Shown here: piece by piece, positions 21,059 to 38,534 of the stretch | Layout of the letters: every line of letters begins with the position of its first letter | Numbering within the stretch: position 1 is the stretch's first letter | From: Caldithrix abyssi DSM 13497 | GTDB lineage: Bacteria > Calditrichota > Calditrichia > Calditrichales > Calditrichaceae | NCBI RefSeq assembly: GCF_001886815.1 | Contig: NZ_CP018099.1 | Location: 2,416,501 to 2,480,500 of the forward strand | DNA: 64,000 bases | Direction of reading: 5' to 3' | Notes under the pieces: generated by a model | The model's input: only the letters and a program-made list of their open reading frames with translations | Told to the model about the DNA's origin: nothing | The model's database searches: none | Translations under genes and position numbers: made by a program

Positions 21059-21133
21059 AAGCAATAGATTGTCGCGATAATTTTTTAACTCCTATTTTGA
21101 TTTTCAATAAATAGCGAGAATTTGGAGCAAAAA

Positions 21134-22780
21134 ATGGAAAACCTCAAAAAAATCCTCATTACTGCTATCGGGGCGCCAAAAAATTACCAACAGGTCACAT
21201 GGGACGAAAAACCCGATCCCATCAAAACGCCCTTCCCCTTCTTAGCCGTGGCTTCTAAGTGGAACGTCGATCATATCCTTTTGTTAGGCACTAAAGAAGC
21301 GTTAGATCAAAACAGAGAACATTATCAACAATTGTTAGACGAATTAGAACGATTCGGCCTTAAGAACAGCCTAAGCGCTAAAGAAATTGGCGCGCTAAAC
21401 ACCAGAGACGAATTCTGGAATGCATTTACCGAAGTGGTTTCCAATCGCTTGTTTAAAAGAGAGGAAATCGATCTTTTCATCGACCTGACCTTCGGCTACC
21501 GCGTGCAGCCCATACTCATCTTTTTAGCCGCCTATTTCTTGCGCGAAACCAGACCAAATATCCATCTTAAAAAAGTTACTTACGGAATTAAAGAAGCCGA
21601 TCCGCCGCACATCCTGGACATGACAGAACTTATCTACCTGTTGGACTGGCTAAAAGCCGCCCAATTGTTCATCCATGGCGGCTCCGCTAAAGAACTGGTT
21701 CTGCGCATCAAAACCATTACAAATGACCAGTTACCTAAATTTGTAGAGAGTTTTGAAGACTTTACCAATGCCTACGCCTTTAACTACGTTAGTTACCTGA
21801 AAAAGAAATCAGAAAGATTTTTAACCGCCAAAAATAAGGACGTTAAAAAATTCCTTAATGAAAACTATCCGGTTTATTCGCAGGTGGAACCCTTTATCCA
21901 CGATTTCCTTAAAATCTTTAAAAATAAAGACCAGCTCTCCTTGCAACTCAATATCGCCAGAAGAAATTTTGAAGAAGGCGCTTACGCCCGTAGCGTTCTT
22001 ATCCTGAGAGAATGCTTCATCACTCTTTTTTGTAAAGTTCTCAATCAAACCAAAAATAAATTCCGGCAAAAAGTGGAACTTGTGCTGCTTAACCGCGTCT
22101 ATTTTGCCCTGTTTGACGAACAAAAAAGCATTAAACTTAGCGTAGAAGAGAACCGTCTGGCTCAAGAGACCTTTCGTATCCTGAACGAGGCGATTCCTGA
22201 AAAAGAACTGCAAAGGTTTTACCGGCTATGGGGAGAAATCCGCGATATTCGCAATGCTGTGGGACACATTAAAAATTTCAACAAAGGCGAAGAAATCGAT
22301 TTTGTTGAACTTAAGAATTACCTGGATACCATCCTGCAGGAGAGCAAAACAATCCTCTTAAGCTTTGTCAGCCATCTGGATACCAGGCCGCAGGTTAAAC
22401 ATACGCTGCAAAACCTTTTAAGCGAAAAAGAGGAAAAGCGATTGTTTGTAATCGTCAACGAAGGCATTCATCCCATTTTGCCCGCCCTGCGTCAGAAATA
22501 TGGCAATAACATCAAATACAAAATTTTAACCGCCGGCAATGTAGATCTTGACATGGAAAAGACCGTCGCTCAACAGTGCAAAAAAATTGCGGAAGAGTAC
22601 CACGATTACCAGATTTTTCTGGTGCCCGGCGGCTATTCTTATCTTTCCATTACCGCCTATGGCGTTTTTCAGCAAAGTATGGGCCGCCATCCCATCTGGC
22701 TGCAATACGATCCCGGGCAAAACCGTTATGTGGAAAAGAATCTCAGTCCGCGCCGCCTGCTGAATGGGGGAGGGGAATAA
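21134..22780 (+). CDS. CARF-HEPN ancillary ribonuclease (Csx1/TM1812-like) with extra C-terminal domain
   Basis: A 548-residue protein. The N-terminal ~180 residues form a CARF-type Rossmann domain of the TM1812/Csx1 class: ILITAIGAPKNYQQVTW, HILLLGTKEAL, and LFIDLTFGYRVQPI, the counterpart of the DxTHG motif. A helical region contains RNAVGH (Arg377-His382 counted from the TTG at 21122), the RxxxxH motif of HEPN ribonucleases. It should be an RNase switched on by the Cas10-made messenger. The last ~110 residues (RLFVIVNEGIHPILPALRQK to IWLQYDPGQNRYVEK) form a further Rossmann-like unit not normal for Csx1. The ATG at 21134 is preferred because GGAG lies six bases before it. Base composition is richer in G+C than the preceding cas genes. 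Confidence 0.8.
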   Translation: MENLKKILITAIGAPKNYQQVTWDEKPDPIKTPFPFLAVASKWNVDHILLLGTKEALDQNREHYQQLLDELERFGLKNSLSAKEIGALNTRDEFWNAFTEVVSNRLFKREEIDLFIDLTFGYRVQPILIFLAAYFLRETRPNIHLKKVTYGIKEADPPHILDMTELIYLLDWLKAAQLFIHGGSAKELVLRIKTITNDQLPKFVESFEDFTNAYAFNYVSYLKKKSERFLTAKNKDVKKFLNENYPVYSQVEPFIHDFLKIFKNKDQLSLQLNIARRNFEEGAYARSVLILRECFITLFCKVLNQTKNKFRQKVELVLLNRVYFALFDEQKSIKLSVEENRLAQETFRILNEAIPEKELQRFYRLWGEIRDIRNAVGHIKNFNKGEEIDFVELKNYLDTILQESKTILLSFVSHLDTRPQVKHTLQNLLSEKEEKRLFVIVNEGIHPILPALRQKYGNNIKYKILTAGNVDLDMEKTVAQQCKKIAEEYHDYQIFLVPGGYSYLSITAYGVFQQSMGRHPIWLQYDPGQNRYVEKNLSPRRLLNGGGE

Positions 22781-23043
22781 TGACTTAAAACATCCAATGC
22801 TTTTACGCAAGATTTAAATAAACTCTGGATTTTTTAAACTACCAGAGCGCCAAAAAGACAAAAGCGAAAAGGACTGAAGTTTAAATAATTAGAAAATGCC
22901 AGAAAAATCACACTAATACGTCGCCCGATAAATGAAGGATTTTTCAAAAACTGCTTAAAGTACGCCTTGAAGTCTCTGTAACGCTTCCTGATTGAAGGCG
23001 CGCGTCATTAATAGTTCAATTTAACAAAATCAGGAAATTTAAC

Positions 23044-24546
23044 ATGCATGAAGCGCGTATATCCATCACTCCCTTTTGCAACTACAAATGCTTTTTTTGC
23101 CACAACGAAGGCCTGGCCAAAAAAGAAGGGCGCAAACCGCAAGCGCAAGACCTGCGCTTCTTGATCTCCCGCTTGTTGGATTACGGATATAACGACCTTA
23201 CCTTTACCGGAGGCGAACCCTTCATCTACCCCGATGTTTTAATGGAAACCCTGAACTGGTTGCAAAACGCCCACGCCGACCGCCTGCCCTCGGTAACCAT
23301 TGTTAGCAACGGCTCACTGGTACAGGAAAACCATGTGGTGCAAATCCTGAAATATCCGAAAATCAAATTCCATATCTCTCTTCATACGGCCAGTGACAAA
23401 AATTACCAGACCATCACGCGCCAGAAGCGCCATTCTTTTTCTACTATTTTAGAAACCCTGCAATTACTGGCAGAATACAGAGCGCATTTCAAAATCAACT
23501 ACGTGCTTTTGCGCGGGGTGAATAACTCGGAACCGGCTATCTGGAGCGCGGTGGACCTGGCCGCGCGCTATTGTGCCCGGGCCATTAAATTTTTGGAATT
23601 ATTGGTGATGGAAAACAACGAGTGGTTGTATCCCTATTTTTTTGATGTGCGATCGGCCGAAGCCATCATAAGTAAAAGAGCGCTCCATCTTCAAACGCAT
23701 AATCGTCGAAAGGTTTATCGCCAAAAGGGCCTTGCGCTCGATATCGAGTTACAGCAACTGACCTGTAAAATTGGCTGCGCAAAGTGTCTGGAAAATCGCG
23801 ATCATACCTTTAGCGCCGCTTTGCAATATTTTCCGTGTATGGAAGCCTCTGATGTTTATTATGATCTGAAAAACGTGGCTCTGGCGCGGGCTATAAAAGA
23901 AGGCAAAAAAATCATCGTTAATCTGGCACAAAAATACGGCAAGCGCTCGCCGTCGCTTATTCAGGAAACACGCTACACCAAAAGCCGCAAAGAGCTCTTT
24001 TTTAGTATGGCCGGCGCGAACTTTGAGCTATTTTTAAAGAAGAACAACGGCCGGTTACTGGAGCAAAAACAGTTTAACGACTGGTATTACCGTCCGCGTA
24101 CGGCGGACTCAGTTTGGGAGAGCAAGCAACGCGTCATTAAAATACGGCAGCATGTAACCGATGAGCGCCGGGCAAAGATCATCGGTTGCACCGTGATCAT
24201 GGATGAAATAGAAGGTCTGCTTTTTCAAAGAACCCTTTATCTTGAAAAAGACCGGGAGATTTATGTGTGCGAATTAGAAAACGCCCGTAAAATAATGGAA
24301 GCGCTGGACATGGTTTGCTGGTTTCAGAACGACTTATTGTTAAAAGTATATCTGGTGGATGGCGCGGAGGTCACCGCCAGCGCCGTAGGAGGCGGGACGG
24401 TGATTGTTGGCCTGAACGCGCAAAGCTTTAGCTCCGAAATAGAGATGAAAGCCTGGCTAAAAAAACATGGATTAGAAACGCGCGGTGAAAAATTATTAAG
24501 CCTTTTGCAGAAATTTTACAGAGCGGTTGAAAAAGGTTTGCAATAG
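23044..24546 (+). CDS. Radical SAM protein (MoaA-like) with CYTH-like C-terminal domain
   Basis: A 500-residue protein. The N-terminal radical SAM domain has the 4Fe-4S motif CNYKCFFC (Cys12, 16, 19) and SAM-binding TFTGGEPFIYPDV. A second cysteine set (Cys241, 245, 248 and 265, in CKIGCAKC and FPCME) recalls the auxiliary cluster of MoaA. From about residue 310 the sequence changes to a CYTH-like pattern, with alternating charged strands in NFELFLKKN, RVIKIRQHV, MDEIEGLLFQRTLYLEK and ARKIMEALDMVCW; CYTH enzymes act on triphosphates. Both halves therefore point to a nucleotide substrate. It lies between the CARF nuclease and the CRISPR leader on the same strand, 263 bases after the former. 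The radical SAM call is firm; CYTH is a moderate inference. Function is unknown. Confidence 0.75.
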   Translation: MHEARISITPFCNYKCFFCHNEGLAKKEGRKPQAQDLRFLISRLLDYGYNDLTFTGGEPFIYPDVLMETLNWLQNAHADRLPSVTIVSNGSLVQENHVVQILKYPKIKFHISLHTASDKNYQTITRQKRHSFSTILETLQLLAEYRAHFKINYVLLRGVNNSEPAIWSAVDLAARYCARAIKFLELLVMENNEWLYPYFFDVRSAEAIISKRALHLQTHNRRKVYRQKGLALDIELQQLTCKIGCAKCLENRDHTFSAALQYFPCMEASDVYYDLKNVALARAIKEGKKIIVNLAQKYGKRSPSLIQETRYTKSRKELFFSMAGANFELFLKKNNGRLLEQKQFNDWYYRPRTADSVWESKQRVIKIRQHVTDERRAKIIGCTVIMDEIEGLLFQRTLYLEKDREIYVCELENARKIMEALDMVCWFQNDLLLKVYLVDGAEVTASAVGGGTVIVGLNAQSFSSEIEMKAWLKKHGLETRGEKLLSLLQKFYRAVEKGLQ

Positions 24547-24754
24547 AAAAAAAATCGTTGTAAATTAAGATAAAACAGAAAGAAAGAGGGCGCTGAAAAA
24601 TTGCCTAACGGTACAGGGAGGTTTTGGCCTTCTAAAAAACAATGGTTTAGGTCGATTTTAGGTCAAATATGGCAGAAAGTTTACAATCAGAACAAACAGG
24701 TTTTGAAAAAGTGCCCCGCGAGGCCTTGTGTATCAAGGGCTGAAAAGTGGAGGA
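24547..24754 (+). promoter_or_regulatory. Probable CRISPR leader
   Basis: About 208 non-coding bases lie between the radical SAM gene and the first repeat. The 8-base 3' end of the repeat, ATTAAGAC, fits a crRNA 5' handle for plus-strand transcription, and the degenerate repeats lie at the opposite end. Both place the leader here. It is A+T-rich at its start and contains AGGTTTTGGCC and GGTTTAGGTCGATTTTAGGT. The array promoter was not pinned down. Confidence 0.65.
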
Positions 24755-25731
24755 GTCGGAAAGTACCCCGTTATTCAGAGGGGATTAAGACTAAATTGAC
24801 TGTTAGATTCCTGCAGTTCGTATCCGTTTTCCTGTCGGAAAGTACCCCGTTATTCAGAGGGGATTAAGACCCTATAACTGCTCATGCCCAGTCGTAGGCT
24901 CACCTGACTATCTGTCGGAAAGTACCCCGTTATTCAGAGGGGATTAAGACACTATCTTTATAGACCTGTCAGGAAAGGTCTGAATCTGTCGGAAAGTACC
25001 CCGTTATTCAGAGGGGATTAAGACATCCATCGTATAGTTCCTTTCAACTTAAGTTTAACAAATAAAGTCGGAAAGTACCCCGTTATTCAGAGGGGATTAA
25101 GACTTTGTTCTTATTGTATTGGCCATTGCGACCAAAGTTTTGAGTCGGAAAGTACCCCGTTATTCAGAGGGGATTAAGACCTTGCTTGAACGACTTTCAT
25201 CTTTTGAATATTTCATTTTTGTCGGAAAGTACCCCGTTATTCAGAGGGGATTAAGACTTTATCTCCTGCCATTGACTCGAGCCATAGCGCAGGCAGCTAC
25301 TGTCGGAAAGTACCCCGTTATTCAGAGGGGATTAAGACACTTATTGCGATAACCGCTATCGCTAATAGAATTAAATAAGGTCGGAAAGTACCCCGTTATT
25401 CAGAGGGGATTAAGACAAAAGAAATCTTCTAATTTCATGTTTATTTCCTTTCATCTTTGTCGGAAAGTACCCCGTTATTCAGAGGGGATTAAGACATTAA
25501 TGGGACACTTTTGAATGTCTTGTCTCCAATCCTGACTGTCGGAAAGTACCCCGTTATTCAGAGGGGATTAAGACTTCACCGTAGCCGGGATTAATGGGAC
25601 ACTTTTGTAGGTCTTGGTCGGAAAGTACCCCGTTATTCAGAGGGGATTAAGACTGGTTGTGGTTATAATAAGGATATGACGAGTTCCTCGTCATGTCGGA
25701 AAGTACCCCGTTATTCAGAGGGGATTAAGAC
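24755..25731 (+). CRISPR. CRISPR array, 13 repeats and 12 spacers
   Basis: Thirteen identical 37-base repeats begin GTCGGAAAGTACCCCG and end AGAGGGGATTAAGAC. Repeats start at 24755, 24834, 24914, 24988, 25067, 25144, 25221, 25302, 25380, 25459, 25538, 25617 and 25695. Spacers are 37-44 bases long. Each repeat can form a CCCC/GGGG hairpin with a 10-base loop. The ATTAAGAC end matches type III-style 5' handles cut by Cas6. Spacers 10 and 11 share an 18-base core. Spacer 12 ends in the hairpin ATGACGAG-TTC-CTCGTCAT, and spacer 3 has AGACCT/AGGTCT. No cas1 or cas2 is nearby, so acquisition would need another locus. Confidence 0.97.
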
Positions 25732-26052
25732 GGGATATTTTCTATTTGTTATTTTTTATTTGCTATTTAAAATTTGTATCGTGGTAATGAGCGGTTTTCC
25801 ACTTTGGTATTAGTCAAATAGAAAATCTTAAATAATAATTAACAAATAATTGCCTCGTTATTCAGAGGGGATTAAGACGGGATATTTTCTATTTATTATT
25901 TTTTATTTGCTATTTAAAATTTGTATCGTGGTAATGAGCGGTTTTCCACTTTGGTATTAGTCAAATAGAAAATCTTAAATAATAATTAACAAATAATTGC
26001 CTCGTTATTCAGAGGGGATTAAGACGGGATATTTTCTATTTATTATTTTTTA
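25732..26052 (+). repeat. Degenerate array end: 147-bp unit duplicated in tandem
   Basis: After the last full repeat, a 123-base A+T-rich segment ends in a truncated repeat, CGTTATTCAGAGGGGATT plus AAGAC, at 25856-25878. The whole 147-base unit is repeated at 25879-26025 with one visible base change (CTATTTGTT to CTATTTATT). A third copy starts at 26026 and is cut off after about 27 bases by the insertion sequence. Within the unit, ATTTTCTATTTG and CAAATAGAAAAT form an inverted repeat. The segment is too long for a normal spacer. Confidence 0.9.
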
Positions 26053-27340
26053 GGCTCTACTGGGATTTTTGTGAAAAACAAAAATAATCCTTAGATTGAG
26101 TTTATGAAAGATAAAGAATTATTTAAACAGATTTTGGGACTTTCGCATCCCTGGGAAGTGTCTAAAGTTGACTTAGATATTGCGAATGAGGAAGTAGAAA
26201 TAGAGATTATCTATAAGTCAAAAAAAGGTTTTTGTCCCGAATGCGAAGTGGAATATGATATTTATGATCATCGCGAAAAACGTCGTTGGCGGCATTTGGA
26301 TACATGCCAAATGAAGACCTATATTGTCTGCAAAGTTCCCCGCATTAAATGCAAGGAACACGGAGTAAAAACGATCAAAGTTCCTTGGGCAGAAAAGTCG
26401 AGTCGAACGACTTTATTATTTGAACGTTTTGCTATTGAGTTATTACTGGCCTCCAAAAACCAGAGCAAAACGGCACAATTTTTACGGATCAGCTTTGATA
26501 TGCTTCATCATATAATGAGCAAAGCAGTGGAACGCGGGCTATCACGCCGAACGGAAGAGGACATTAAATATATCGGGATAGATGAGAAGAGTATGAAAAG
26601 AGGTCATACTTATGTAAGCGTATTATCCGATAGTGAAAGAAGACGTGTAATAGATGTAAGTGAAGGTCGCACAACAAGCTCTGCCAGTTCCTTAATAAAC
26701 AAGGGATTAACAGAGAAACAAAAGGAGGGCCTCAAAGCGGTCAGTATGGATATGTGGAAAGCTTTTATTAAAGCTGTTCAAAAGGAGCTTCCCAATGCTT
26801 CCAAAGTGCATGACAAATTTCATATAATGAAGTATTTAAATGATGGAGTGGATAAAACCAGACGAGAGGAAGCCCGTAAATTACAAAAATCTAATGATAA
26901 AACCTTAGTGAAAAGTAAATATTTATTTTTAAAGAATCCGGAAAATATGACGGACAAGCAATTATCGCGTTTCAGAAAAATTCAAGAACTTAACCTTATC
27001 ACTTCCCAGGCTTGGGCGGCCAAAGAGAACTTCAAAGAATTCTTTAGGAGTGAAACAATAAATGATGCGAAATTCTTTTTTGCGGAATGGTATCAGGATA
27101 TTAAGGGACGTTCTTTAAATAAAATGATTAAAGTAGCAAAAATGCTCATTGCTCATTCAGATGGCTTATTAAACTATATAAGATATCAGATAGATAATTC
27201 AGTAGCCGAATGGTTGAACGGCAAGATACAGGAGATAAAAACAGTTGGTAGAGGCTTTAGAAAATTTGAAAATTTTAGGATAGCAATACTTTTCTTTCTT
27301 GGTAAATTAGACCTTTTTCCACAGGAATCCCAGTAGAGCC
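26053..27340 (+). mobile_element. Insertion sequence of the ISL3 family
   Basis: The element is 1288 bp. The left end reads GGCTCTACTGGGATT, then TTTGTGAAAAA; the right end, reverse-complemented, reads GGCTCTACTGGGATT, then CCTGTGGAAAAA. These are imperfect inverted repeats of about 26 bp. One full-length transposase lies between them. Flanking 8-mers (ATTTTTTA and AAATAAAT) are not identical, and the right flank does not continue the interrupted array-end unit. The expected target duplication is therefore missing, and a deletion or rearrangement on the right is likely. Confidence 0.92.
26104..27336 (+). CDS. ISL3-family transposase
   Basis: A 410-residue DDE transposase. The N-terminal zinc-binding region has CPECEVEYDIYDH, then RRWRHLDTCQ and CKVPRIKCKEHG, as in ISL3 proteins. 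The catalytic domain includes YIGIDEKSMKRGHTYVSVLSD (first Asp, about residue 159), KAVSMDMWKAFIKAV (second Asp) and a C-terminal NSVAEWLNGKIQEIKTVGRGFR (catalytic Glu region). The frame is intact and occupies almost the whole element, ending four bases before its right tip, so the element may still be active. It starts 51 bases inside the left end. There are no accessory genes. Confidence 0.95.
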   Translation: MKDKELFKQILGLSHPWEVSKVDLDIANEEVEIEIIYKSKKGFCPECEVEYDIYDHREKRRWRHLDTCQMKTYIVCKVPRIKCKEHGVKTIKVPWAEKSSRTTLLFERFAIELLLASKNQSKTAQFLRISFDMLHHIMSKAVERGLSRRTEEDIKYIGIDEKSMKRGHTYVSVLSDSERRRVIDVSEGRTTSSASSLINKGLTEKQKEGLKAVSMDMWKAFIKAVQKELPNASKVHDKFHIMKYLNDGVDKTRREEARKLQKSNDKTLVKSKYLFLKNPENMTDKQLSRFRKIQELNLITSQAWAAKENFKEFFRSETINDAKFFFAEWYQDIKGRSLNKMIKVAKMLIAHSDGLLNYIRYQIDNSVAEWLNGKIQEIKTVGRGFRKFENFRIAILFFLGKLDLFPQESQ

Positions 27341-27593
27341 AAATAAATTTTATTAAAAAAGGCAAAACCATGCTAATTTGCCATGCTTTAATTGAATTTA
27401 ATTATGCTAAGAGAAAAATTAAAAAGGATAATTCTCCAATAATCAACTGCTTAATTAGCGATATTCCGGCGGCAATATACATCCTGGTAATGGACTCTAA
27501 GCTTTTGCTCGTGCTAATCATGTTTAGTATTTCGCATAAAATTTTAAAAAATAAAGTTTCATATGAACTCAAAACTATCATAAGGAGAGCTTT
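27341..27593. other. Short non-coding gap before the tubulin-like operon
   Basis: This A+T-rich stretch should hold the promoter of the four-gene operon. A 75-codon frame (27370-27597) overlaps the next start but lacks a ribosome site and recognisable content. AAGGAGAGC sits seven bases before the ATG at 27594. Confidence 0.5.
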
Positions 27594-30500
27594 ATGAATG
27601 CTCAATACAAAATCCCGACTATTCTCCTGGGTATTGGCGGGACCGGGGGGCGGATCGTAGACCAATTAGCCGGAATGTACTACCGGCTTGAAGAGGAACA
27701 TCGAAACAATATCCCAACTGAATTCCTGGTGCTGGATACCGACGTCAATGATATTAATAGAATCAAACATATTGAACCGCAAAAAGTATTTAGAATATCA
27801 CGCAACTATTCTATAAAACAGTACATAGAATTGCATAATAATGGGCGAGATATCGAAGGCTGGTTCCCGATCTTATATCAATACCTGCACAACAAGTCAG
27901 TATTGGAGGGCGCCGGTCAAATTCGCATATTAGGAAGGCTGGCCCTGTACGCCATGTTTGAACAGCCGGGTTTTGAAGAGCGCGTTGCAAGCGAAATTCG
28001 AAATACGTTACGACAATGGCACGGTCAATTAGGGAATTTGCGTATTTTTTTGATCGGTTCCATTTGTGGCGGAACAGCCTCGGGTATTCTCATTCCTCTC
28101 ACCCTGTGGTTGCACAAAGAATTTAATGCCTTGCATCCTCAAATCAAAGGGGTCTTCTTTTTGCCGGGAATTTATACCAATGCCTATAATCTTCCCATTA
28201 ATCAACATGAACGTCTGCGTGTAAATGCTTATGCGGCGCTTAAAGAAATCGAAAATATGTTCCGCTTTATTTACGGTCTGTATGATCGGGATCAAAATGG
28301 CCTAAAACCTCGCCCCCTCCATTTCGACTTTCACCCCCAATATCGGAACTTTCAAATCACCAGCAATCAGCAGTTGTTTAAAATGGTATATCTGGTGGAT
28401 TTTGAAAACATGAAAAACCAGCACCTGGTAAAAAGAGGCGAAGAATATGAGAATCTGGTGATTCACGGTATTTTCAATCAACTTTACACGCCAATCGCCA
28501 GCGCTCAGGGTTCTATTGAAGATAATAATATCATTCAAACTCTACAGACTTTAGGAAAACAAAAGTTAACCAATATTTATTGTACATTTGGCGTGGCGGC
28601 CGTGGAATATCCTTACGACGATTTGCTAAACTATTTAGCGCATCAATACAGTATTCGCACCATCTCCGAAAACTGGCTAAAGATCGATCGAGAATTTGAA
28701 GCGCGCAAAAAAAATTATGATATGCAGCGCCAGCAGGGCATTTTAAATCTTCCCGAACTCCGTTTAGAAAAAGAATATGTCTCCATTTTCGAATCCTTCA
28801 GCCAGAATGATACATTTTTTAATACTATTTCCAAGCGATTTAACATACAGGTGGAAGGGACAAACCTTACTGTTAATCAGGCCGATCATTATATTGAAGC
28901 TCTGGAAAAGCATCTATTAAACGAGCTACGGACTAATGAGTTGTATTTTAACTTTGCGTACAAGTATGCAAGAGGTATTGACGCCGAAACCCTGAAAGAA
29001 GAAGCAGACCCCGCGGATGCCATTGCTACTTTTGAACAAGATTTTGAAGAAATGAGACTCAAATTGAACCGCCCTGGCGACCAGGTGAGCGATATGGTGT
29101 TTAGACAATCTGTGTTGGTGGGAGAAGAAACTCCGGATGGCCAATTGTTAGAAATTCATTTGCAAAATTACATTCGAAAAGACTCACCTCATCCCATCGG
29201 GGTGCGTTATTTTTTGTATAAAGTAATGCTAAATTTGGAATCAAAAATCGAAAATATTGAAAAAGAATTGTTGCAATTAAATGATCAATTTAATTGGTAC
29301 CAATATAAGGCATTTGATGATCCTGAAACCGAAGAAATCGAAAACGCCACCATGCGTTTTGATAGGATTCGCAATTCTGGTCTTATAAAACGTATGTTGA
29401 AGATTAATAAATTCTTAGAGAATTACAGCAATGAGGCAAGCAACCATATCCACCATTTAAAAAAGTACATGGAAGAATATGCTTTGCTGAAACTCTTTAA
29501 ACGGATCTACGAAGAAGTGGATAATATTGTCGAAGAATATGAGACTTTTTTTGATTCTTTACCCACTCTCATTCATCTGGTGCAGGTAAAAATTTCAGAA
29601 TTAGAAAACATGCACGATGCGCGCCAGAAAAATTCATTTAAACATTATATCTTTGCCAGCGCAGAATTGAAAAGAAAATTATGGGAGCAGGAGAAGTTTC
29701 GTCTGACCACCTTTAATGATCCTAAAATAAATCATGAAATTTATGAGTTACTTTTTAAAACCTATTATAACCGTTATCGTTCATCGTTTACTCTCTCGCG
29801 GCGACGTAAAATCCACTCTACCTATCCCCACAAATTCATAGATATTTTAATCCCGCGTTGTGTGGATGTGGTGCGTTCCTCAATCGGCGGTAATTATAAT
29901 TTAAATTTTGCTGAAATTTTCAGGAAACGAATCGAATTGGAGAATCCCGACATGGAACCTCAGGAAATTGAAAGACTATACATCCAGGAAATTAAAATGC
30001 TTCTCAAATCCCTGTTCAACAGGGCAGAAGGATTTTTGCAGGTAGTGGATGACCGTAATATACAGACGATGATTTTTTTAGGAATTCATGAAGATGTTTT
30101 AAACTACCTGAGAAATACCATAAACGATTTCGATGCATTTATCCAGCAGGAAGCCGGTCAGCAAACCATATCGGATAACTTTTTTAACAATAGAATTATC
30201 CAGGCCTATCGCGTTCGTTACGGAATTACGGCTAAAGACATGGCTCGCTTTCATTTTAAAGATGGCGAATATTACCGAGCCTATCAAAAGTGTATTAAGA
30301 ACATCTTTCAATCAGATGATCCTGAAGTTTTTCCGAATGATGTGTTGCCGCATTTAGATAAAAACTGGCATAAATATGGCTATTTGCCCGGCATATTTGA
30401 AGAAGAAATCGATCTTTACAACCGAATGAAAATGACGGCGATTACTGCGGGAAGACTAACTGACACCATCAATATTCAAAAGAGCCACCGTGCGCAAAAT

Positions 30501-31010
30501 GAAATAATTGTAAGATGGCAGTGGCCGGGAGAACTGCTGCAAGAAAGTTTTATGAAAAAAATATCGCCTTCTACTTTTTGCATGATCCATTACTGGCTGG
30601 ATGATCATGCAGGCTATATTCCCAGATTTCTGGACGAATTTAAAAATTGGGTTTTTAATTCAAACACCTATGACGAAAAAATATCTCATTTTCTACGTGT
30701 GTGGAAAGAACTAATGAAAAGCCTTCAGGAAGAACGAGGCAACTTAGATAATCAAACGTTTATTTACAACCTGGCGAAGCAGCTTTTGCCGATGTATAAG
30801 TATTTGGTAATGAACCAGGAAGGAATTTCGGATGACGAAAAATTCAAGCAATTCAACGCAGGACTTCAAAAATTTTCGGATTTACTCAACAAAAATACAA
30901 AGCTCCATCAGGATGAAAAAAACAATTTAACGAACATGATCGAAAGCGTTAACACGGCAGATGTAAAAGAGTTAGAGACGATTTTAACTCAATCGGAAAT
31001 TTTACTTTAA
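27594..31010 (+). CDS. Tubulin/FtsZ-like GTPase, very large
   Basis: A 1138-residue protein. Residues 8-30 hold PTILLGIGGTGGRIVDQL, the first nucleotide-binding loop of the tubulin/FtsZ superfamily. EFLVLDTDVNDINRI then follows as in these GTPases, and IGSICGGTASGILIPL (Cys158-Gly164) is the tubulin signature loop GGGTGSG with modest changes. This N-terminal third fits the 'tubulin-like' family (PF13809 type). The remaining ~750 residues are mainly helical, with coiled-coil-like runs and no recognised domain. It could form filaments or act as a GTP switch. No membrane segment is seen. It is gene 1 of a four-gene operon, with 9 bases to the next start and the AAGGAGAGC site in front. It is far longer than FtsZ (~380 aa) or TubZ. 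Confidence 0.78.
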   Translation: MNAQYKIPTILLGIGGTGGRIVDQLAGMYYRLEEEHRNNIPTEFLVLDTDVNDINRIKHIEPQKVFRISRNYSIKQYIELHNNGRDIEGWFPILYQYLHNKSVLEGAGQIRILGRLALYAMFEQPGFEERVASEIRNTLRQWHGQLGNLRIFLIGSICGGTASGILIPLTLWLHKEFNALHPQIKGVFFLPGIYTNAYNLPINQHERLRVNAYAALKEIENMFRFIYGLYDRDQNGLKPRPLHFDFHPQYRNFQITSNQQLFKMVYLVDFENMKNQHLVKRGEEYENLVIHGIFNQLYTPIASAQGSIEDNNIIQTLQTLGKQKLTNIYCTFGVAAVEYPYDDLLNYLAHQYSIRTISENWLKIDREFEARKKNYDMQRQQGILNLPELRLEKEYVSIFESFSQNDTFFNTISKRFNIQVEGTNLTVNQADHYIEALEKHLLNELRTNELYFNFAYKYARGIDAETLKEEADPADAIATFEQDFEEMRLKLNRPGDQVSDMVFRQSVLVGEETPDGQLLEIHLQNYIRKDSPHPIGVRYFLYKVMLNLESKIENIEKELLQLNDQFNWYQYKAFDDPETEEIENATMRFDRIRNSGLIKRMLKINKFLENYSNEASNHIHHLKKYMEEYALLKLFKRIYEEVDNIVEEYETFFDSLPTLIHLVQVKISELENMHDARQKNSFKHYIFASAELKRKLWEQEKFRLTTFNDPKINHEIYELLFKTYYNRYRSSFTLSRRRKIHSTYPHKFIDILIPRCVDVVRSSIGGNYNLNFAEIFRKRIELENPDMEPQEIERLYIQEIKMLLKSLFNRAEGFLQVVDDRNIQTMIFLGIHEDVLNYLRNTINDFDAFIQQEAGQQTISDNFFNNRIIQAYRVRYGITAKDMARFHFKDGEYYRAYQKCIKNIFQSDDPEVFPNDVLPHLDKNWHKYGYLPGIFEEEIDLYNRMKMTAITAGRLTDTINIQKSHRAQNEIIVRWQWPGELLQESFMKKISPSTFCMIHYWLDDHAGYIPRFLDEFKNWVFNSNTYDEKISHFLRVWKELMKSLQEERGNLDNQTFIYNLAKQLLPMYKYLVMNQEGISDDEKFKQFNAGLQKFSDLLNKNTKLHQDEKNNLTNMIESVNTADVKELETILTQSEILL

Positions 31011-31019
31011 GAAAAGCCA

Positions 31020-32711
31020 ATGCATATTCACATTATCAATCAGAATACAGAATCACCGTTGCGGGCACAGGGGCTTCTCATTCTTTTTGGGCTGCTTAAA
31101 GAGAATCCGGAGAAAATCACCATTCTGGATGAGACATTAAAAGAATGGGAATGCGCGACAGATGAAAAACTGTTTTCGGTTGTAGGATTGCCGCGCGAAA
31201 GACATGTGGAATACCTGCGTCTGAGAATTCTAGTGGGCGAAAGTCAGGTCAACCTGTGGATGCTCCCTTCCGGGAAAAATAACCCTGATATCATAAACGC
31301 TATTGCCAGCGATCTTAAACCTATTAACAACAGCCAACAGGTAATCAACATTTTGTTGGCGCAAAATTATCCTTCCCAAAATATTCAATTGCCCGTAGTT
31401 GAATTTACTGATAAGAAAAATTTATTGATTTTTATTATAGCGCTTTCACAATGGCTTTTGAATGATCAGGAAATAGAGGATGCAGATAAATTTAATATTT
31501 TGGAGCAATTGATACCGACACAATGTTGGGAATTAATAATAGAAAAAGGGGGCTTGAACCCTCAGGAAATTTATAATGCGTATGAGGAGATCAAGCAATT
31601 GGCCTCTGATGAAAAAGAAGAAAAAGAAATTCCGGATTCTTTCTGGCAACCGGTCGACACTTTGGCAGCCCCGGTTAATAAGGAAGACTGTCCTATGAAT
31701 ACGTTAAATTTAAACGAATCGCAGGCAGCATTAGCAATCAAAAATCCTCATGAAGCATCCAGGCTGAATGATTGGTTCAATTCAGTGCGAGAGGAAATAT
31801 TAAAAAACATTAAACAGAATACGCACAAACTGGGGGAGTGCTTTCAAAAGCGTTATGAAGAAATTATTAATAAAAACGACCCTTTAATTCTTCAAAAAAA
31901 TGAAATCGAGTCCATTTACACACCTCAAAAATATCAGACCCTATTTAATGAGATCGAAAGGCGCCAGAAAAATCTGGAAGCTGAACAAAAAGAAAATTTG
32001 CCCATTAATTTATTTAATGAAGTTCAACAAAAAATCGAACAGTTAGAACAACGCATGTTTCAGGCGGTCAATACTATCAAACGCACTATCCCTGAACGTA
32101 ATATCGTAATTCCAGCTGCCCTGTCTATTTTGTTAACCATTCTGTTCTTCGGAATCCCTCTATTTTTAACAATACCGGATGCACGACCACCCATGGAATG
32201 GAAAGAGTTAAAAATGGACCTGGTTTGGCTTGGCGCTCTATTGTTATTAATATCACTATTTGCAGTTTATATCTACAAAAAAGAAAAAAAGAAGATCGAG
32301 TCCGAAATTAATGCCTTAAAAAATCAATTGCAGGCCATTCAGGAAAAATTAACTAAATTGTATGAAGCACATGCCAAAGCCCATACCTTGCAAATGCAAT
32401 TAAATATACTCCTGCAATTAAAAGAAAAATTGTTGGAACATAAACAAAAGATGGAAGTGATTTCACAGAAAAAGAATGCGCAAATGACATTGCTGAACGA
32501 CTGGCAAACAAATATTATACGTCCATTGGAAGAAGAGATTAATTCTGTTTCTAAAAAAAAAGTGGTTTCTCAGCCTTCTCCATTGAAAGTGTTTTTGCAG
32601 AATGGGGCCCAAAATACAAACATTGAAATGACAAGTGATTTGATTGTTTCTACGGCCCGCCAAAATACGTTGTTAATTAAGCTTGAAAAAGCAAACAATG
32701 GGAGTTCATGA
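31020..32711 (+). CDS. Membrane-anchored coiled-coil protein of the tubulin-like operon
   Basis: A 563-residue protein of no recognised family. The first ~230 residues look globular (IHIINQNTESPLRAQGLLILFG at the start). Charged helical heptads follow around 290-355. Two membrane helices are predicted at about 361-384 (AALSILLTILFFGIPLFL) and 403-420 (WLGALLLLISLFAVYI), then a long coiled coil at about 420-510 rich in Glu, Lys and Gln, and a short C-terminal tail. Both large parts probably face the cytoplasm. It resembles a membrane adaptor or tether that could dock the GTPase encoded upstream. It overlaps the next gene by four bases (ATGA), so translation is coupled. No catalytic motif is seen. 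Confidence 0.6.
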   Translation: MHIHIINQNTESPLRAQGLLILFGLLKENPEKITILDETLKEWECATDEKLFSVVGLPRERHVEYLRLRILVGESQVNLWMLPSGKNNPDIINAIASDLKPINNSQQVINILLAQNYPSQNIQLPVVEFTDKKNLLIFIIALSQWLLNDQEIEDADKFNILEQLIPTQCWELIIEKGGLNPQEIYNAYEEIKQLASDEKEEKEIPDSFWQPVDTLAAPVNKEDCPMNTLNLNESQAALAIKNPHEASRLNDWFNSVREEILKNIKQNTHKLGECFQKRYEEIINKNDPLILQKNEIESIYTPQKYQTLFNEIERRQKNLEAEQKENLPINLFNEVQQKIEQLEQRMFQAVNTIKRTIPERNIVIPAALSILLTILFFGIPLFLTIPDARPPMEWKELKMDLVWLGALLLLISLFAVYIYKKEKKKIESEINALKNQLQAIQEKLTKLYEAHAKAHTLQMQLNILLQLKEKLLEHKQKMEVISQKKNAQMTLLNDWQTNIIRPLEEEINSVSKKKVVSQPSPLKVFLQNGAQNTNIEMTSDLIVSTARQNTLLIKLEKANNGSS

Positions 32712-35700
32712 GTGTGGATGTAATTCTCATAGCCATTACGCTGGTAATACTTTTGATGTTTTTTTTAATCAGGTCTTATCGCAATCCGCACCTGCATTTT
32801 TTCCCCATGATTGCGGCGTTAGTAATCTTTAGTTTTTCTTTTTGGGGCGCAGAATCTTTTAATGAGCTTTTCAATTGGTTGGACAGACAATTACAAATCC
32901 ATCTGGGGATTGTACTTCCTGCTTTTTTTTATAATTTTGCAATCTGGTCTGTAAACCTGATGCTCCTCATATTATTATTAATCGTTCGGTGGATACTCAT
33001 TATATTAGAAAAAATTTTACAGAGATTAACCGCGCACAAGTTGTCTTTCCCCGCTTATTATACGTATGGAATACGTTATTATTTACTAAAACGATTTAAT
33101 GGAATTAAGACCGTTTTAACCGGAGGCTGGATTATCATCAGCGGATTTGTTCTTCTGGGAATCTATCTTTCAGTAAATGGTACCTTGAATTTTTTCCCTC
33201 TGCTACTATGGGCGCCCCTTGTGGCTGTTGTGTATGAAGCGGCTGTTTATTTTTCCGGCGAGATTCGTTGGATCGACATGCGTCTGCCCATTTCTTTCGA
33301 AAAGCCTGCCTTGCGCTGGATTGATACCTACAATAAAATTTTTTCCATGTACAGGGAGCATTTCGATTCACATATCCTGTACCATTTAATATATCGAAAA
33401 CAATATATGAAGAATACGAATCAGACAAAAATTATCAGTGAACTGCAGGAGCAGGATGTTTTAATTACCGATCCGTTTAACGACCGGATATTATCCGTAA
33501 TTGCAGAAACGATATCTTATTATCTCTCGCATGGGAAAAAAGTTATCGTTCTTTCACATCATGAACACTCTTTGCAAGAATTTTACCACTCTATGAATCC
33601 CGTTTTAGAGAACGAGTTGTATATTTATTCGCGGGACATTTATTTTAATCAACCGCTAATCGATCCTCTTTTGATGGCCTACCGCATCTATTTCATTACC
33701 TTTGACAAGTGGGAAGACTGGATCGATACCGACAGGTGGAGTGCATTGGCCGCCAATACCGGTCTGATGATTGTTCTTCATCCTGGCCAGATGTACCCGG
33801 AGCTTCATGCCCAAATCGCTCAAATATTCAAAAAAAGTGATTTGCCCGAAAGACTCAGAATGTTGATTATTGCCGAAAAATGGCAGAATATCGAAGAGAG
33901 CGTGCGTTTATTGTACCGCCGTCGCAGGCTACTGGAAGTGCAGTCTCTGCAGTCCAATACATTTAAACGTTATTTGATTTTATGGGAAGGACGGCAAAAT
34001 TATCACCAAAAAGTTTTCTTGAATGTCAATTATTTACCACCTCCTGCAATTTTGAGCCTTGTTCCTTTACATTATGGCATTCCATCCATCTACTGGCTTG
34101 ATGCCGGTGATTTTGAACGTGATAGCATCGAAACTCTGGAGGGGGCAATTCGCCAACAAAACGCACAGATAAAAAATTTGAACAATACTTCCGTAAATGT
34201 GGATAAATTTTGTCTCCAATCTTCATGGCGTGTATGGAGAACAGGCAGCAGCCGCTTTAGTTTTATTTTCGATAGATTTTTCAATTTGCCTTTTCTGCTC
34301 AACTATCTGGAAAAGCATGGCGCTCTGGAACTGGAATTTATCAATATTTTATCAGACCAATACTTACTCCGCTCCTATTTTTTGGCTAATCTAAAATATT
34401 TTCTTATTACGCCACATCAGGAAGCTTTATTCCCGATTACCACCTGGCCTTCTACCTCTGTTAAACAAGTTCTCATCTCCTTACTACGCACCCTGTTGCA
34501 TAAATCCCTGACTGAACCAGAGCTGGAAAGCATGTTTTTTTATGATAAATCATTCTGGGATAAAGTTTATAAATTTATTGATCCAAATTCGGATAAACCA
34601 TTTGAATATAAGGCCCATAAGCTAAATCAACTAATCGCTATTTTTATTGAGAATGGAAATGATACGCAACTTATCAAAGAACATTACCAATGGGATGACC
34701 AAAACCAGGCGTATGTTAAATATTTCCCCGTGATCCAGGTAAAAGAAGACCAACTCATACCAAATAAAGATTTTAGCTTCCATCTGGCAGGGGATACTGA
34801 TAAAAGAGAATTATTATTCAAACACATTATTACACTGGACAATATTATCTATCATTTGCACCTCAATCAGATCATTATTTTGCATTTACCCGACCAGCAG
34901 AAGGATGATGTCAAGGCTTATCGCATTGAAAATATTGATGTCGATCAGCGCAAGGTTTTTGTGCAACATCAAACACCGCAGTCTTTACAAATCCTGATTC
35001 CATCCGTGGAATTCAGAATCGAGGTTAATATTCCCTTTGAGGAAACCAGTATCATAATACAGTCCAAAACAGTTGAGTACAGGCAGTGGCTATGTCGTTA
35101 CACACGCAAGGTGCGAAAAGTGCTAAAGTTTGTCGGAGAGCCCACTCTCTTGCCTAAAGAATTTCAGATACTTGATGCGAAAAATGTTTATCCGCAAAGT
35201 TTGCTCGAAAAAAACTTTCCCATTGCCCGGGCGCTTAGTATCCACCTGCAATTAAAGAGCGCGGGGTCATCCCACGATTTTAAACGCATCGCTTTTACGC
35301 TTAGCCTCCTTTTACAAAAAATGCTAAAAAGTCTCTTTCCCAGCGCCTTTCCGCAATTAAAAGTTTTTTCGCCACAGGCCTGTAATTTGTTAAACCAGCA
35401 AAAAGAAGAATATCCAATTGGGACAGGTTTGCATCTTTTATATCCGGTTGTAACAGATAAGGGGGACAAATCCTTTCCCGTTTCCGGATCAATAGATATC
35501 TGGATTTTGGAAGAAAGCGAGATCGGGTTGGGCGTGTGCGAATATCTTTATAACAGCAAACTTTCCAATTTGTGGGATATTTTAGAAGATTTTCTCTGTT
35601 TTATGAAAGAAAACGACGTTGCCGCAGATGACTTATATTTTCATGTGAGCGGAGACGAGCGTGACCAATTTCCTTACGACTTTGACGGCACCCTGGAAAT

Positions 35701-36463
35701 TGTTTCCGAATTGAACGCCAATAACGCTAATTCTTTAAAGCAGCGACGCGCCCTGTGGGACACAGCCCGTGCAGACCATTTTCATATCATTAACTTGCCC
35801 GACCGGCTGCAGGCTGGCGTGGAATGCGATTTTTGCGGTATAAAAATTGGCGAAAAATCTTATACGGAGCTGGAAGATGGGCGAACGCTCTGTGAAGAAT
35901 GCCAGAAGACCGCTGTGATGACCGAAGATGCCTTCAAAAAAATTATGAAAACGGTCTATCGGGATGTGGAACAATATTTTAGCATCCGCTTACCCAAAAT
36001 CGCTCAGATTTCTGTGATAAATACGGCCGATTTACAACAAGTTCTGGGAAAGACCTTTATTCCCACTCCCCAGTACGATCCACGCGTTGTGGGCGTTGCC
36101 ATTCACCAGCAAGATGATTTTATCATTATGATAGAGAATGGAGCTCCGTACTGGAATACATATTTAACCTTTGTTCATGAAATTACCCACATCTGGCAAT
36201 TTATTTCTCTGAAAAATCTCAATGAAATTCCTCTTGAGTTACTGGAAGGGCATACAACGTACGTGGAATATGCGCTGGCGCAATGGTATTTGCGCAAACG
36301 AGAAGATGAAATTCTGCAAAGAATTAAAGTCCAGCTTGATACCCGCCGTCAACAACAGGGAGATGTGTATGGCGTGGGACTTCAGTATTTTCTGCAGCAT
36401 GTTCCCAATAATTACAATCCATATTTCTATATGTTAGAATTGTTTGGTCGGCAGGAGTATTAA
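32708..36463 (+). CDS. Membrane protein with C-terminal LIM-like zinc module and DA1-like metallopeptidase
   Basis: A 1251-residue protein. Five or so hydrophobic helices occupy residues 1-185. A long middle part has an ATPase/helicase-like rhythm without a P-loop (DVLITDPFNDRILSVIAETI, KVIVLSHHEHS, GLMIVLHPGQ). Near the C-terminus, Cys1040-x2-Cys1043 and Cys1062-x2-Cys1065 form a LIM/treble-clef module ending DGRTLCEECQKTAVM. After it come FVHEITHIWQF, with HExxH at 1157-1161, and LLEGHTTYVEY, with Glu1180 as likely third zinc ligand. The LIM-then-HExxH-then-EEG/LEG order and wording match DA1-type peptidases, ubiquitin-linked in plants. It starts inside the preceding gene, and the VWA gene begins two bases after its stop. 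Peptidase targets are unknown. Confidence 0.68.
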   Translation: MSVDVILIAITLVILLMFFLIRSYRNPHLHFFPMIAALVIFSFSFWGAESFNELFNWLDRQLQIHLGIVLPAFFYNFAIWSVNLMLLILLLIVRWILIILEKILQRLTAHKLSFPAYYTYGIRYYLLKRFNGIKTVLTGGWIIISGFVLLGIYLSVNGTLNFFPLLLWAPLVAVVYEAAVYFSGEIRWIDMRLPISFEKPALRWIDTYNKIFSMYREHFDSHILYHLIYRKQYMKNTNQTKIISELQEQDVLITDPFNDRILSVIAETISYYLSHGKKVIVLSHHEHSLQEFYHSMNPVLENELYIYSRDIYFNQPLIDPLLMAYRIYFITFDKWEDWIDTDRWSALAANTGLMIVLHPGQMYPELHAQIAQIFKKSDLPERLRMLIIAEKWQNIEESVRLLYRRRRLLEVQSLQSNTFKRYLILWEGRQNYHQKVFLNVNYLPPPAILSLVPLHYGIPSIYWLDAGDFERDSIETLEGAIRQQNAQIKNLNNTSVNVDKFCLQSSWRVWRTGSSRFSFIFDRFFNLPFLLNYLEKHGALELEFINILSDQYLLRSYFLANLKYFLITPHQEALFPITTWPSTSVKQVLISLLRTLLHKSLTEPELESMFFYDKSFWDKVYKFIDPNSDKPFEYKAHKLNQLIAIFIENGNDTQLIKEHYQWDDQNQAYVKYFPVIQVKEDQLIPNKDFSFHLAGDTDKRELLFKHIITLDNIIYHLHLNQIIILHLPDQQKDDVKAYRIENIDVDQRKVFVQHQTPQSLQILIPSVEFRIEVNIPFEETSIIIQSKTVEYRQWLCRYTRKVRKVLKFVGEPTLLPKEFQILDAKNVYPQSLLEKNFPIARALSIHLQLKSAGSSHDFKRIAFTLSLLLQKMLKSLFPSAFPQLKVFSPQACNLLNQQKEEYPIGTGLHLLYPVVTDKGDKSFPVSGSIDIWILEESEIGLGVCEYLYNSKLSNLWDILEDFLCFMKENDVAADDLYFHVSGDERDQFPYDFDGTLEIVSELNANNANSLKQRRALWDTARADHFHIINLPDRLQAGVECDFCGIKIGEKSYTELEDGRTLCEECQKTAVMTEDAFKKIMKTVYRDVEQYFSIRLPKIAQISVINTADLQQVLGKTFIPTPQYDPRVVGVAIHQQDDFIIMIENGAPYWNTYLTFVHEITHIWQFISLKNLNEIPLELLEGHTTYVEYALAQWYLRKREDEILQRIKVQLDTRRQQQGDVYGVGLQYFLQHVPNNYNPYFYMLELFGRQEY

Positions 36464-36464
36464 A

Positions 36465-38534
36465 ATGCGCCATAAAATTCTCTATTACACATTTATTTAC
36501 TTTTTGTTGATGTCCGGCGCAGGCAGGGCGGCTGAGGAAGGACAGTGGATCGGGGTTATTTATGACAACTCTGGTAGTATGGAAAAGGCAGAACGTCATC
36601 ACATTACCGCTTATGCCTTTAAACTATTTACCGCTTTATTAATGCCAGAAGATACCCTGGCCATTATTACAATGTCTGAGGTAAGCGCTAATCCCAATGC
36701 GCGTCCGCGTGTATTCTACACTTCACGAAAACAACAAATATTAAATTACATCGACGGTCTGAACTATCGATCCGCCACGCCTGTGGAAACCATTCGGCAG
36801 ATGCTGCGCTATTTTCAACTAAAAGATAAAAAACAAAAAAGCCTGATGATTTTGACCGATGGCGTTTTTGAGCCGGAGCCAAATATTAATCTGGCTCAAT
36901 ATCTTTCACCGGAGGAGAATCTGGTTGCAGGATATTTAATACTCAATCCCAATCCAAATTTATTAAGGGAGATTGAACGTCAGAATGTACTGCCGACCTT
37001 GCTGGAAATTATCAATGGCTCCAGAAACAAAGGTTGTTTTTTTGTGCATCACCATCGGGAAATTCCAGAAAGATTGGGGGAGCTATTTGCCTTTGCCACC
37101 GGAAAAAGCCTTAAAGGACAGGAAGCTTTTGTCCAGGTTGAGGGCAAGCGGTTACGAATTAAAAGTCCTTTTCCCATGCGCAGCGTGCGGCTCATCTATC
37201 AAAGTACCTACAGTCGTGTGGTTCAGATTAGCCGTGTAAATTTTCCGAGCAGAAAGGAACTTTATCATCAGGCGCTTCCCGGAGCTAATCTGTCCGCTAT
37301 TTCAGGAATTCTCTTTTTTAATAATGTCATACCCCCTGATTCCACTATTGAGATCACCTTTAATCATCCGCTTCTTCGGGAAAATCTGTTTCTATTTCTT
37401 GATACAACGCTGGACCTACAACTAACGGTGCATAATGCCACATTAGGTCCGGTGGCTCCCATCGATCAAATTTATGCAGTGGGCGCCGGCGACTCTCTCT
37501 GGCTGGAAGGCGTATTCAGTTTCCAGAAAAAACCCTATCAATTTTCACCTTCATTATTGAAGCGTTTAAAATTTCAAGCTCAAATACGAGGCGGGGAAAA
37601 AATTGATTTTCAAACGACAGACCGTTTGCTCTTTAAAACACCACCATTTGTTTTGCAACCCACTACTTCCGGGGCCGTGGTAATAGATGTGTCGGCCATT
37701 TTTCCGGGACATTTTCACTTGCAGCGAAAGCTAATATTTAATACGGCCCCCATTCATTCGCGGATATTGATCAACGGGCAGCTGTGGCATGATTCCCTGT
37801 ATACATCCATACCTCGTCACAAATTGGATTCCATCCCGCCGCTTAATATCACTGTTGTCACGGAAAAAGGCGATACCGTTACGAGCGACTTTAATATCAA
37901 AATCTCAACGCATCCAGAAATTAAACGCCTTATTAACAAAAAAGGAAACTTGATCACGGTTATGTTTGACAATTATTTTTTCCCCTGGAAAGACCCCGAT
38001 AGAAATGTTTACCTGCAGATCAATGCCGTGCCCAAATCGCGACTCTATACAGCGCATCAAAAGTCCTTACAAATTAAGATTACGCCTGGCTCATTCTGGC
38101 AACACTGGAAAACATTTATCCTGACCATTCTATCCATTTTAGTAATAATTAAATGCCTGTATTGTTGGTTATTTGTGCCTCGTTTTCCACCGCGCGCCCG
38201 CATTTCTTATCGTAGAAAAAGTAAGGCCGGTTACCAGAATCCGATAACCCGTAAATTGCATCGCCGGTCTTCATATTTGTTCTGTTGGCGAGAACGGCGC
38301 AAGTTGGCGGGCATTTCTTTCCTTGCAAATAATAGACGTAGCATTTTGATTGATCGTAAATTTGCTCGTGAGAAAGAAAACATTCAGGTTAATGGCATTA
38401 CTTTAAAAGAAGCCAGCAAAGATGGAAAAAAACACATCCTGGTCAATACAAACACGGAGATTAAGATTTACCACAGCAATGGAGACACTACAAACATTCA
38501 ATTCCGTCCCAATGGTAAATTTTCAGCGAGGTAA
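36465..38534 (+). CDS. Exported, membrane-anchored von Willebrand factor A protein
   Basis: A 689-residue protein starting at the ATG at 36465 behind GGCAGGAG, not at the in-frame TTG at 36444. A signal peptide (RHKILYYTFIYFLLMSGAGRA) precedes a VWA domain with a complete metal-ion site: Asp34-x-Ser36-x-Ser38 in YDNSGSM, the Thr in SATPVETI, and LTDG. Beta-rich extracytoplasmic domains follow to about residue 540. A membrane helix at ~550-572 and a basic C-terminal part of about 110 residues come last. So the VWA faces the periplasm and the tail faces the cytoplasm. It would bind a protein ligand through the metal site. It is the last gene of the tubulin-like operon. Confidence 0.78.
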   Translation: MRHKILYYTFIYFLLMSGAGRAAEEGQWIGVIYDNSGSMEKAERHHITAYAFKLFTALLMPEDTLAIITMSEVSANPNARPRVFYTSRKQQILNYIDGLNYRSATPVETIRQMLRYFQLKDKKQKSLMILTDGVFEPEPNINLAQYLSPEENLVAGYLILNPNPNLLREIERQNVLPTLLEIINGSRNKGCFFVHHHREIPERLGELFAFATGKSLKGQEAFVQVEGKRLRIKSPFPMRSVRLIYQSTYSRVVQISRVNFPSRKELYHQALPGANLSAISGILFFNNVIPPDSTIEITFNHPLLRENLFLFLDTTLDLQLTVHNATLGPVAPIDQIYAVGAGDSLWLEGVFSFQKKPYQFSPSLLKRLKFQAQIRGGEKIDFQTTDRLLFKTPPFVLQPTTSGAVVIDVSAIFPGHFHLQRKLIFNTAPIHSRILINGQLWHDSLYTSIPRHKLDSIPPLNITVVTEKGDTVTSDFNIKISTHPEIKRLINKKGNLITVMFDNYFFPWKDPDRNVYLQINAVPKSRLYTAHQKSLQIKITPGSFWQHWKTFILTILSILVIIKCLYCWLFVPRFPPRARISYRRKSKAGYQNPITRKLHRRSSYLFCWRERRKLAGISFLANNRRSILIDRKFAREKENIQVNGITLKEASKDGKKHILVNTNTEIKIYHSNGDTTNIQFRPNGKFSAR

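Follow-up and report, generated by a model that had tools for sequence, protein, structure and literature searches.

The window analysed here is a stretch of 64,000 nucleotides (bases 2416501–2480500) from the complete, single-contig genome of Caldithrix abyssi DSM 13497 (4.98 Mb). It contains an operon of four genes for a tubulin-like GTPase, a coiled-coil membrane protein, a large membrane protein with a putative helicase-derived core and a peptidase module, and an exported VWA protein. Comparison with other genomes confirmed that this set is a conserved unit and not a chance neighbourhood. As our preferred reading, to which we give somewhat less than an even chance, the four products form one envelope-spanning complex, in which a VWA sensor outside, assembly of the GTPase and a pseudo-helicase scaffold would together release a latent peptidase.

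All four open reading frames (ORFs) are intact and lie on the + strand, like all features of the operon given below, at the coordinates of an initial annotation of this DNA. Gene 1 (27594–31010, 1138 amino acids (aa)) encodes a GTPase of the Tubulin_2/FtsZl1 family, gene 2 (31020–32711, 563 aa) a predicted two-transmembrane (TM) hairpin flanked by coiled coils, gene 3 (32708–36463, 1251 aa) a multi-TM protein with a YprA-derived pseudo-helicase and a zinc finger/DA1 peptidase, and gene 4 (36465–38534, 689 aa) an exported VWA protein with a predicted single C-terminal TM anchor. When the start of gene 4 is taken as the ATG at 36465, not the TTG at 36444 of a mechanical ORF list, the gaps counted with stop codons are 9, −4 and 1 bases, which reproduces the tight operon described in the initial annotation.

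As the initial annotation had suggested to check, we looked for the neighbourhood elsewhere and found it in further classes and phyla, with the gene order either kept or permuted. A tblastn search with protein 1 revealed a plasmid of Azospirillum ramasamyi that carries four genes of similar sizes in the same order; the counterpart of protein 1 shows 24% identity over residues 8–937 (E 4e-69), and the VWA protein and gene 3 were matched at E 2e-10 and E 2e-6, respectively. The full four-part set is present in this plasmid, in a second alphaproteobacterium and in eleven genomes of the Clostridia class. The first Clostridia contig, obtained by a genome scan, encodes a VWA protein, a tubulin, a two-TM coiled-coil protein and a gene-3 homologue with LIM-DA1, and the order VWA, tubulin, coiled coil, gene 3 was seen in 10/10 further loci from the Clostridia search that were seen whole. 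In G384 (locus L032; same class as an alphaproteobacterial contig) there is a 4-base overlap at each junction from the tubulin gene through the coiled-coil gene to gene 3. The VWA gene of this copy runs divergently, and MotA/ZorA-like and MotB/ZorB-like genes lie directly behind it (2025–4364 of L032; PADLOC ZorB2 E 2e-14, ZorA2 E 6e-7). Since the genome samples were taken from chosen groups, the frequencies are local and not global: gene-3 matches occurred in 4/291 genomes of the Clostridia class and in 17/295 of one order in this class, and the full protein in 1/40 genomes of the window's phylum. Genes 2 and 3 overlap or are at most 2 bases apart in 16/16 tabulated loci. This closeness points to a conserved operon with coupled translation and favours a joint complex.

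Gene 1 matches Tubulin_2 (PF13809, E 9.5e-76) over residues 10–353, and this GTPase-like domain is followed by a long helical C-terminal part. The tubulin GTP-loop motifs noticed earlier, GIGGTGG (27630–27650) and GGTASG, were seen again, and the GIGGTGG loop was found in 16/16 tubulins compared. A profile of relatives that was built without the window protein recovered gene 1 at E 2.8e-135. The host genome has one Tubulin_2 gene. A tree of 24 Tubulin_2 domains set the 17 from four-gene-type loci apart from 7 from other kinds of loci at 98/98 support; the inner order of this tree is unsafe because branches are long and the sampling is small. Neither proteins 1 and 3 nor a 17-member profile had a credible match among PDB sequences. 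No relatives were seen in viral contigs scanned with the same two proteins, or in plasmids searched with protein 3.

Gene 3 had been named a LIM-DA1 peptidase in the initial annotation. The zinc module and HExxH motif behind this name are present with invariant ligands, but the name does not fit the whole product, whose N-terminal TM region and helicase-derived middle had been overlooked. A profile made from the relatives, with the window protein left out, finds gene 3 at E 2e-74. Hydropathy predicts about five TM segments in residues 1–185 (32708–33262), and 3–5 such N-terminal segments are seen in the relatives; the long middle that follows we take to be cytoplasmic. An alignment of 17 gene-3 proteins suggested the motif pattern of superfamily 2 (SF2) helicases without the catalytic residues. 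The middle of gene 3 was compared by hhalign with a MrfA/YprA profile built from PF09369 genes. Residues 225–440 (33380–34027) matched the RecA1 domain with p 2.2e-6 to 3.5e-6, and residues 700–1010 (34805–35737) gave a colinear match to the OB-CON-DUF1998 part with p 5e-4 to 1.8e-3; these p-values are those of single profile pairs and not database E-values. Reversed profiles reached p values of at least 0.13, and generic DEAD-box helicases of the same genome matched the RecA1 region more weakly (p 2.2e-4). When columns were shuffled, the gap-rich alignment gave one outlier (136), and after removal of gap-rich columns 0/100 shuffles reached the real score for RecA1 or for OB-CON-DUF1998.

The middle of gene 3 thus appears to derive from SF2 helicases of the YprA/MrfA family. 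Neither a P-loop (Walker A, GKT) nor DExH was found in the RecA1 region in any of the 17 gene-3 proteins, and none of them has a C4 pattern as expected for the four-Cys zinc cluster (DUF1998/MZB), which is likewise missing from Dpd (PMC12458937). As Walker A and DExH are missing, gene 3 cannot encode an active helicase of the usual kind, and we file it as helicase-derived and not as a helicase.

At the C-terminus of gene 3 a single CxxC-x18-CxxC zinc finger (C1040, C1043, C1062, C1065; 35825–35902) stands directly before a peptidase region with a DA1-type active site, HEITH...EG (H1157, E1158, H1161, E1180; 36176–36247). Finger and active site are invariant in 12 aligned proteins. PF12315 itself matched the gene-3 family with E 0.1 only, and in one relative. 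The region is assigned to LIM-DA1 because a stand-alone protein from another genome of the window's class (G023; 1420–2565 of L002) bridges to it. This protein has the architecture LIM-LIM-LIM-DA1 (PF00412 E 2.7e-17, PF12315 E 1.2e-11) and shows 26% identity to the gene-3 C-terminus (E 3.2e-8); the four Cys, HExxH and the downstream Glu are all kept, and the single finger of gene 3 aligns with its last finger. It represents a bacterial counterpart of plant DA1, a latent peptidase whose activity requires the LIM-like finger (PMC5322733). When 196 genomes were screened with the DA1-like Pfam model, it gave no match. One of these genomes, G042, has the module in its gene 3, so the model is too insensitive here.

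The window protein and the Clostridia have the LIM-DA1 module, and in several Clostridia a transglutaminase domain (PF01841, E 1.3e-8) comes after it. The alphaproteobacterial copies do not have it; it is missing in Azospirillum, G384 and G109, and the loci without any output module are L004, L023 and L032 (the last in G384). These architectures show the zinc-finger/DA1 peptidase as a removable C-terminal module on a constant chassis, with no output, LIM-DA1, or LIM-DA1 plus transglutaminase as the variants. Two further loci, L072 (G636) and L073 (G763), hold strongly diverged members of the four-gene family, and the LIM-DA1 residues are altered in L072.

Gene 4 starts with a signal-peptide-like N-terminus, and the metal ion-dependent adhesion site (MIDAS) of its VWA domain is complete (DNSGS at 36564–36578, SATPV and LTDG). 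DxSxS and TDG are present, and the extracytoplasmic layout is kept, in 16/16 VWA proteins compared. The corresponding profile, again made without the window protein, detects gene 4 at E 1.8e-31, PF00092 at E 0.0035 only. The complete metal site and the exported start agree with the periplasmic VWA protein of the initial annotation. Because one TM segment is predicted by hydropathy at about residue 560 (38115–38171, centre residue 560), a layout shared by the relatives, the protein is probably membrane-anchored and not freely periplasmic; the short tail behind this segment would be cytoplasmic. The two-TM coiled coil assigned to gene 2 was also recovered: hydropathy places two TM segments (32118–32276, centres at residues 376 and 410) within coiled-coil-like sequence, and Pfam gave no family match. 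Most other loci have a counterpart of like position, size and TM placement (67–73% of the length). With a coiled-coil profile, gene 2 was the best non-member match apart from one near copy of a member (E 0.0023).

In the predicted topology a metal-dependent binding domain lies outside, TM anchors are supplied by genes 2, 3 and 4, and the GTPase, the pseudo-helicase and the peptidase are inside. This arrangement and the conservation of the unit fit the machine spanning the inner membrane that the initial annotation had imagined, though not with gene 3 as a mere peptidase. We suggest that the VWA domain of gene 4 would bind a ligand outside the inner membrane through its metal site, while gene 2 together with the N-terminal part of gene 3 would hold the complex in the membrane. 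Below it the coiled coils would be the site of GTP-dependent assembly of the tubulin-like GTPase, and the pseudo-helicase would be a scaffold that needs no nucleotide and holds the C-terminal output module in a latent state. Ligand binding outside would change the assembly of the GTPase and lead to clustering of gene 3, so that the zinc-finger/DA1 peptidase is released and may cut a cytosolic or membrane target. The signal would thereby run from outside to inside, and GTPase assembly would set the threshold of such a sensor-to-effector device, which may serve in stress or conflict. A conserved chassis with an exchangeable C-terminal hydrolase fits a device of this kind.

Upstream of the operon the window carries type III CRISPR genes (18917–24543) with a Cas7/Csm3 III-D-like fusion (PADLOC E 1e-164), a Csx1-type CARF-HEPN protein (E 3e-44) as well as a radical SAM protein that is matched by models of prokaryotic viperins (E 8e-17). 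They are followed by a CRISPR array (about 24729–25731, 13 full repeats) and, between array and operon, by a transposase gene, ISL3-like by reading, that is enclosed by imperfect 34-base inverted repeats (26045–27348). Past the array (region 24729–26052) lie two 147-base AT-rich tandem repeats with degenerate copies of the CRISPR repeat, and two adjacent spacers have the string ATTAATGGGACACTTTTG in common. The initial annotation had seen a hint of a defence or stress role in the place of the operon directly after CRISPR and an insertion sequence. We rejected this position as functional evidence because it is not common to the other loci; most flanks of the other copies have no defence match. 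Only single loci have such neighbours, namely the ZorA/ZorB-like genes in G384 and a CARF-PDDEXK nuclease gene 1.4 kb upstream of the operon in G883 (L067, 999–2225). The Azospirillum copy adjoins genes for iron and tripartite ATP-independent periplasmic (TRAP) transport. In some Clostridia, membrane proteins that weakly match RCK/TrkA_N, RyR or Castor/Pollux are encoded directly downstream (L016, 16324–18435; L062, 15444–17213), and it is possible that they are an extra component of the system. Downstream of the operon, a 990-aa exported protein (43389–46361) consists of two near-identical halves followed by an apparent C-terminal secretion-sorting domain.

The envelope-spanning complex proposed above is favoured by the kept MIDAS/VWA layout and GTP loops, by a RecA1 fold signal that persists despite the loss of the motifs, by the variable output on a constant chassis with invariant peptidase ligands, and by the patchy distribution. 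Several points weigh against it. For no member protein did we find biochemical work. FtsZl1 proteins are described by Makarova and Koonin 2010 (PMC2875224) as lacking recognisable T6-H7 filament elements, and filament formation by the gene 1 product is doubtful for this reason. Sequence homology of gene 2 across loci was rejected as proof, since a reversed control scored equally with hhalign, and gene 2 is tied to the other loci by position and topology only. The pseudo-helicase homology is read from profile–profile comparison as its single source, and AlphaFold modelling of gene 3 (RecA1 region and LIM-DA1 region) from two-row alignments gave models too poor to use (pLDDT, the predicted local distance difference test, of 40 and 52). 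Foldseek searches with these models were treated as uninformative. The scarcity of defence matches among the flanking genes counts on the same side. That the four genes are unrelated and came together by accident might be read from the absence of the set, save for a separate LIM-DA1 protein, from the other 39 searched genomes of the phylum. This explanation is refuted by the same four-part set in three bacterial groups, the tight spacing and the single tubulin branch, and we regard it as wholly improbable.

Two other functions deserve more weight. The operon may encode a membrane-remodelling machine, in which the GTPase shapes vesicles or the inner membrane and has its outside anchor in the VWA protein, with the peptidase or transglutaminase doing no more than trimming or cross-linking components. 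Remodelling was proposed for the whole FtsZl1 family with its VWA, OmpA-like and membrane partners (PMC2875224), and in one of the alphaproteobacterial copies MotA/MotB-OmpA-like genes adjoin the gene for the VWA protein. The published proposal is, however, based on context, and a reviewer of that paper preferred transport or signalling. One would moreover not expect a device that shapes membranes to contain a dead DNA-helicase core or exchangeable hydrolase modules, and we consider this function rather unlikely. We hold it to be unlikely, too, that the system acts against phages by sensing infection at the envelope and responding with peptidase-mediated arrest or death. Tubulin and VWA modules do occur in predicted conflict systems (PMC7159879), the effector module is variable and the distribution patchy, and type III CRISPR in the window, CARF-PDDEXK in G883 and the ZorA/ZorB-like genes in G384 would suit such a role. 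Yet PADLOC models gave no meaningful match to the four proteins (best E 0.27), flanking genes elsewhere are mostly free of defence matches, the helicase core is dead, and the Azospirillum copy has transport genes as neighbours. It is possible, if doubtful, that the operon represents a class of transmembrane machine for signalling or immunity that has not been described before. In it a YprA-family helicase would have given up its ATPase, relocated to the membrane and turned into a scaffold under the control of a tubulin-like GTPase and an outside VWA sensor, with a DA1-type peptidase or a transglutaminase as interchangeable output.

Known since 2010, Tubulin_2 proteins still lack an assigned function. 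A compact conserved operon with a peptidase output and a defined outside domain opens the function of FtsZl1 to experiment. The YprA helicase family, so far linked to DNA repair and phage defence, would gain a catalytically dead membrane form, and the operon would give a bacterial setting for a plant-type DA1 peptidase.

The initial annotation knew of no described system with this set. For the exact four genes this agrees with our search of the open-access literature (subscription papers and supplements were outside the search), in which no description was found; operons with Tubulin_2 and VWA genes were published in 2010 and 2020. Makarova and Koonin (PMC2875224) described operons of Tubulin_2 (FtsZl1) with genes for VWA proteins, P-loop GTPases, kinases and OmpA proteins. 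Like these, the operon has a Tubulin_2 gene with a long helical C-terminus that adjoins a VWA gene with intact MIDAS, and membrane proteins of unknown kind; the alphaproteobacterial copy with an OmpA/MotB-like gene adds to this likeness. In contrast, the four genes lack the frequent, not obligatory, P-loop GTPase or protein kinase partner, and the pseudo-helicase and LIM-DA1/transglutaminase parts are additional to the main text of that paper, whose unnamed families A1-A2 and B1-B9 are given in its supplements only. Kaur et al. 2020 (PMC7159879) placed operons of tubulin and VWA genes with GAP1 GTPases among predicted conflict systems. Their GAP1-N2 systems are Firmicute operons that resemble ours in combining tubulin and coiled coil with an extracellular VWA protein, for which regulated assemblies were proposed, but they contain GAP1 GTPases and FNIII proteins as well as two tubulins, features that the four genes here lack. 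Pfam searches of the four proteins gave no match to P-loop GTPases, protein kinases, GAP1 GTPases or FNIII, and NCBIfam gave no match.

Two plasmids of Thermaceae (L005, Thermus oshimai; L006, Meiothermus taiwanensis) carry consecutive genes for VWA, Tubulin_2, a hypothetical protein and BrxL, and genes for an exonuclease, a helicase or a HEPN protein are close by. This is a different Tubulin_2 class in a BREX-like setting. Tubulin_2 adjoins a VWA gene there as well, but these tubulins belong to another branch of the tree, no gene-3 homologue was detected by profile, and BrxL follows. A 2025 study of YprA helicases (PMC12458937), which covers DISARM, Dpd, Druantia, ARMADA, BRIGADE and TALON, makes no mention of tubulin, VWA, LIM or transmembrane forms. 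Gene 3 resembles the YprA/MrfA helicases treated there (MrfA, DrmA, Dpd, DruE of Druantia, ARMADA) in a RecA1 region followed by an OB-CON-DUF1998-like region. It differs from them by the missing P-loop, DExH and four-Cys cluster, and by its N-terminal multi-TM region and peptidase fusion, with no nuclease seen. With LIM-DA1 peptidases (plant DA1, G023) it has in common a zinc finger followed by HExxH...EG; unlike them it has only one CxxC-CxxC finger and is fused to a membrane protein. In the open-access literature searched no description was found of the membrane-anchored pseudo-helicase or of the DA1 output, and these would be the new parts of a system that otherwise belongs to the already known kind of Tubulin_2 and VWA operon.

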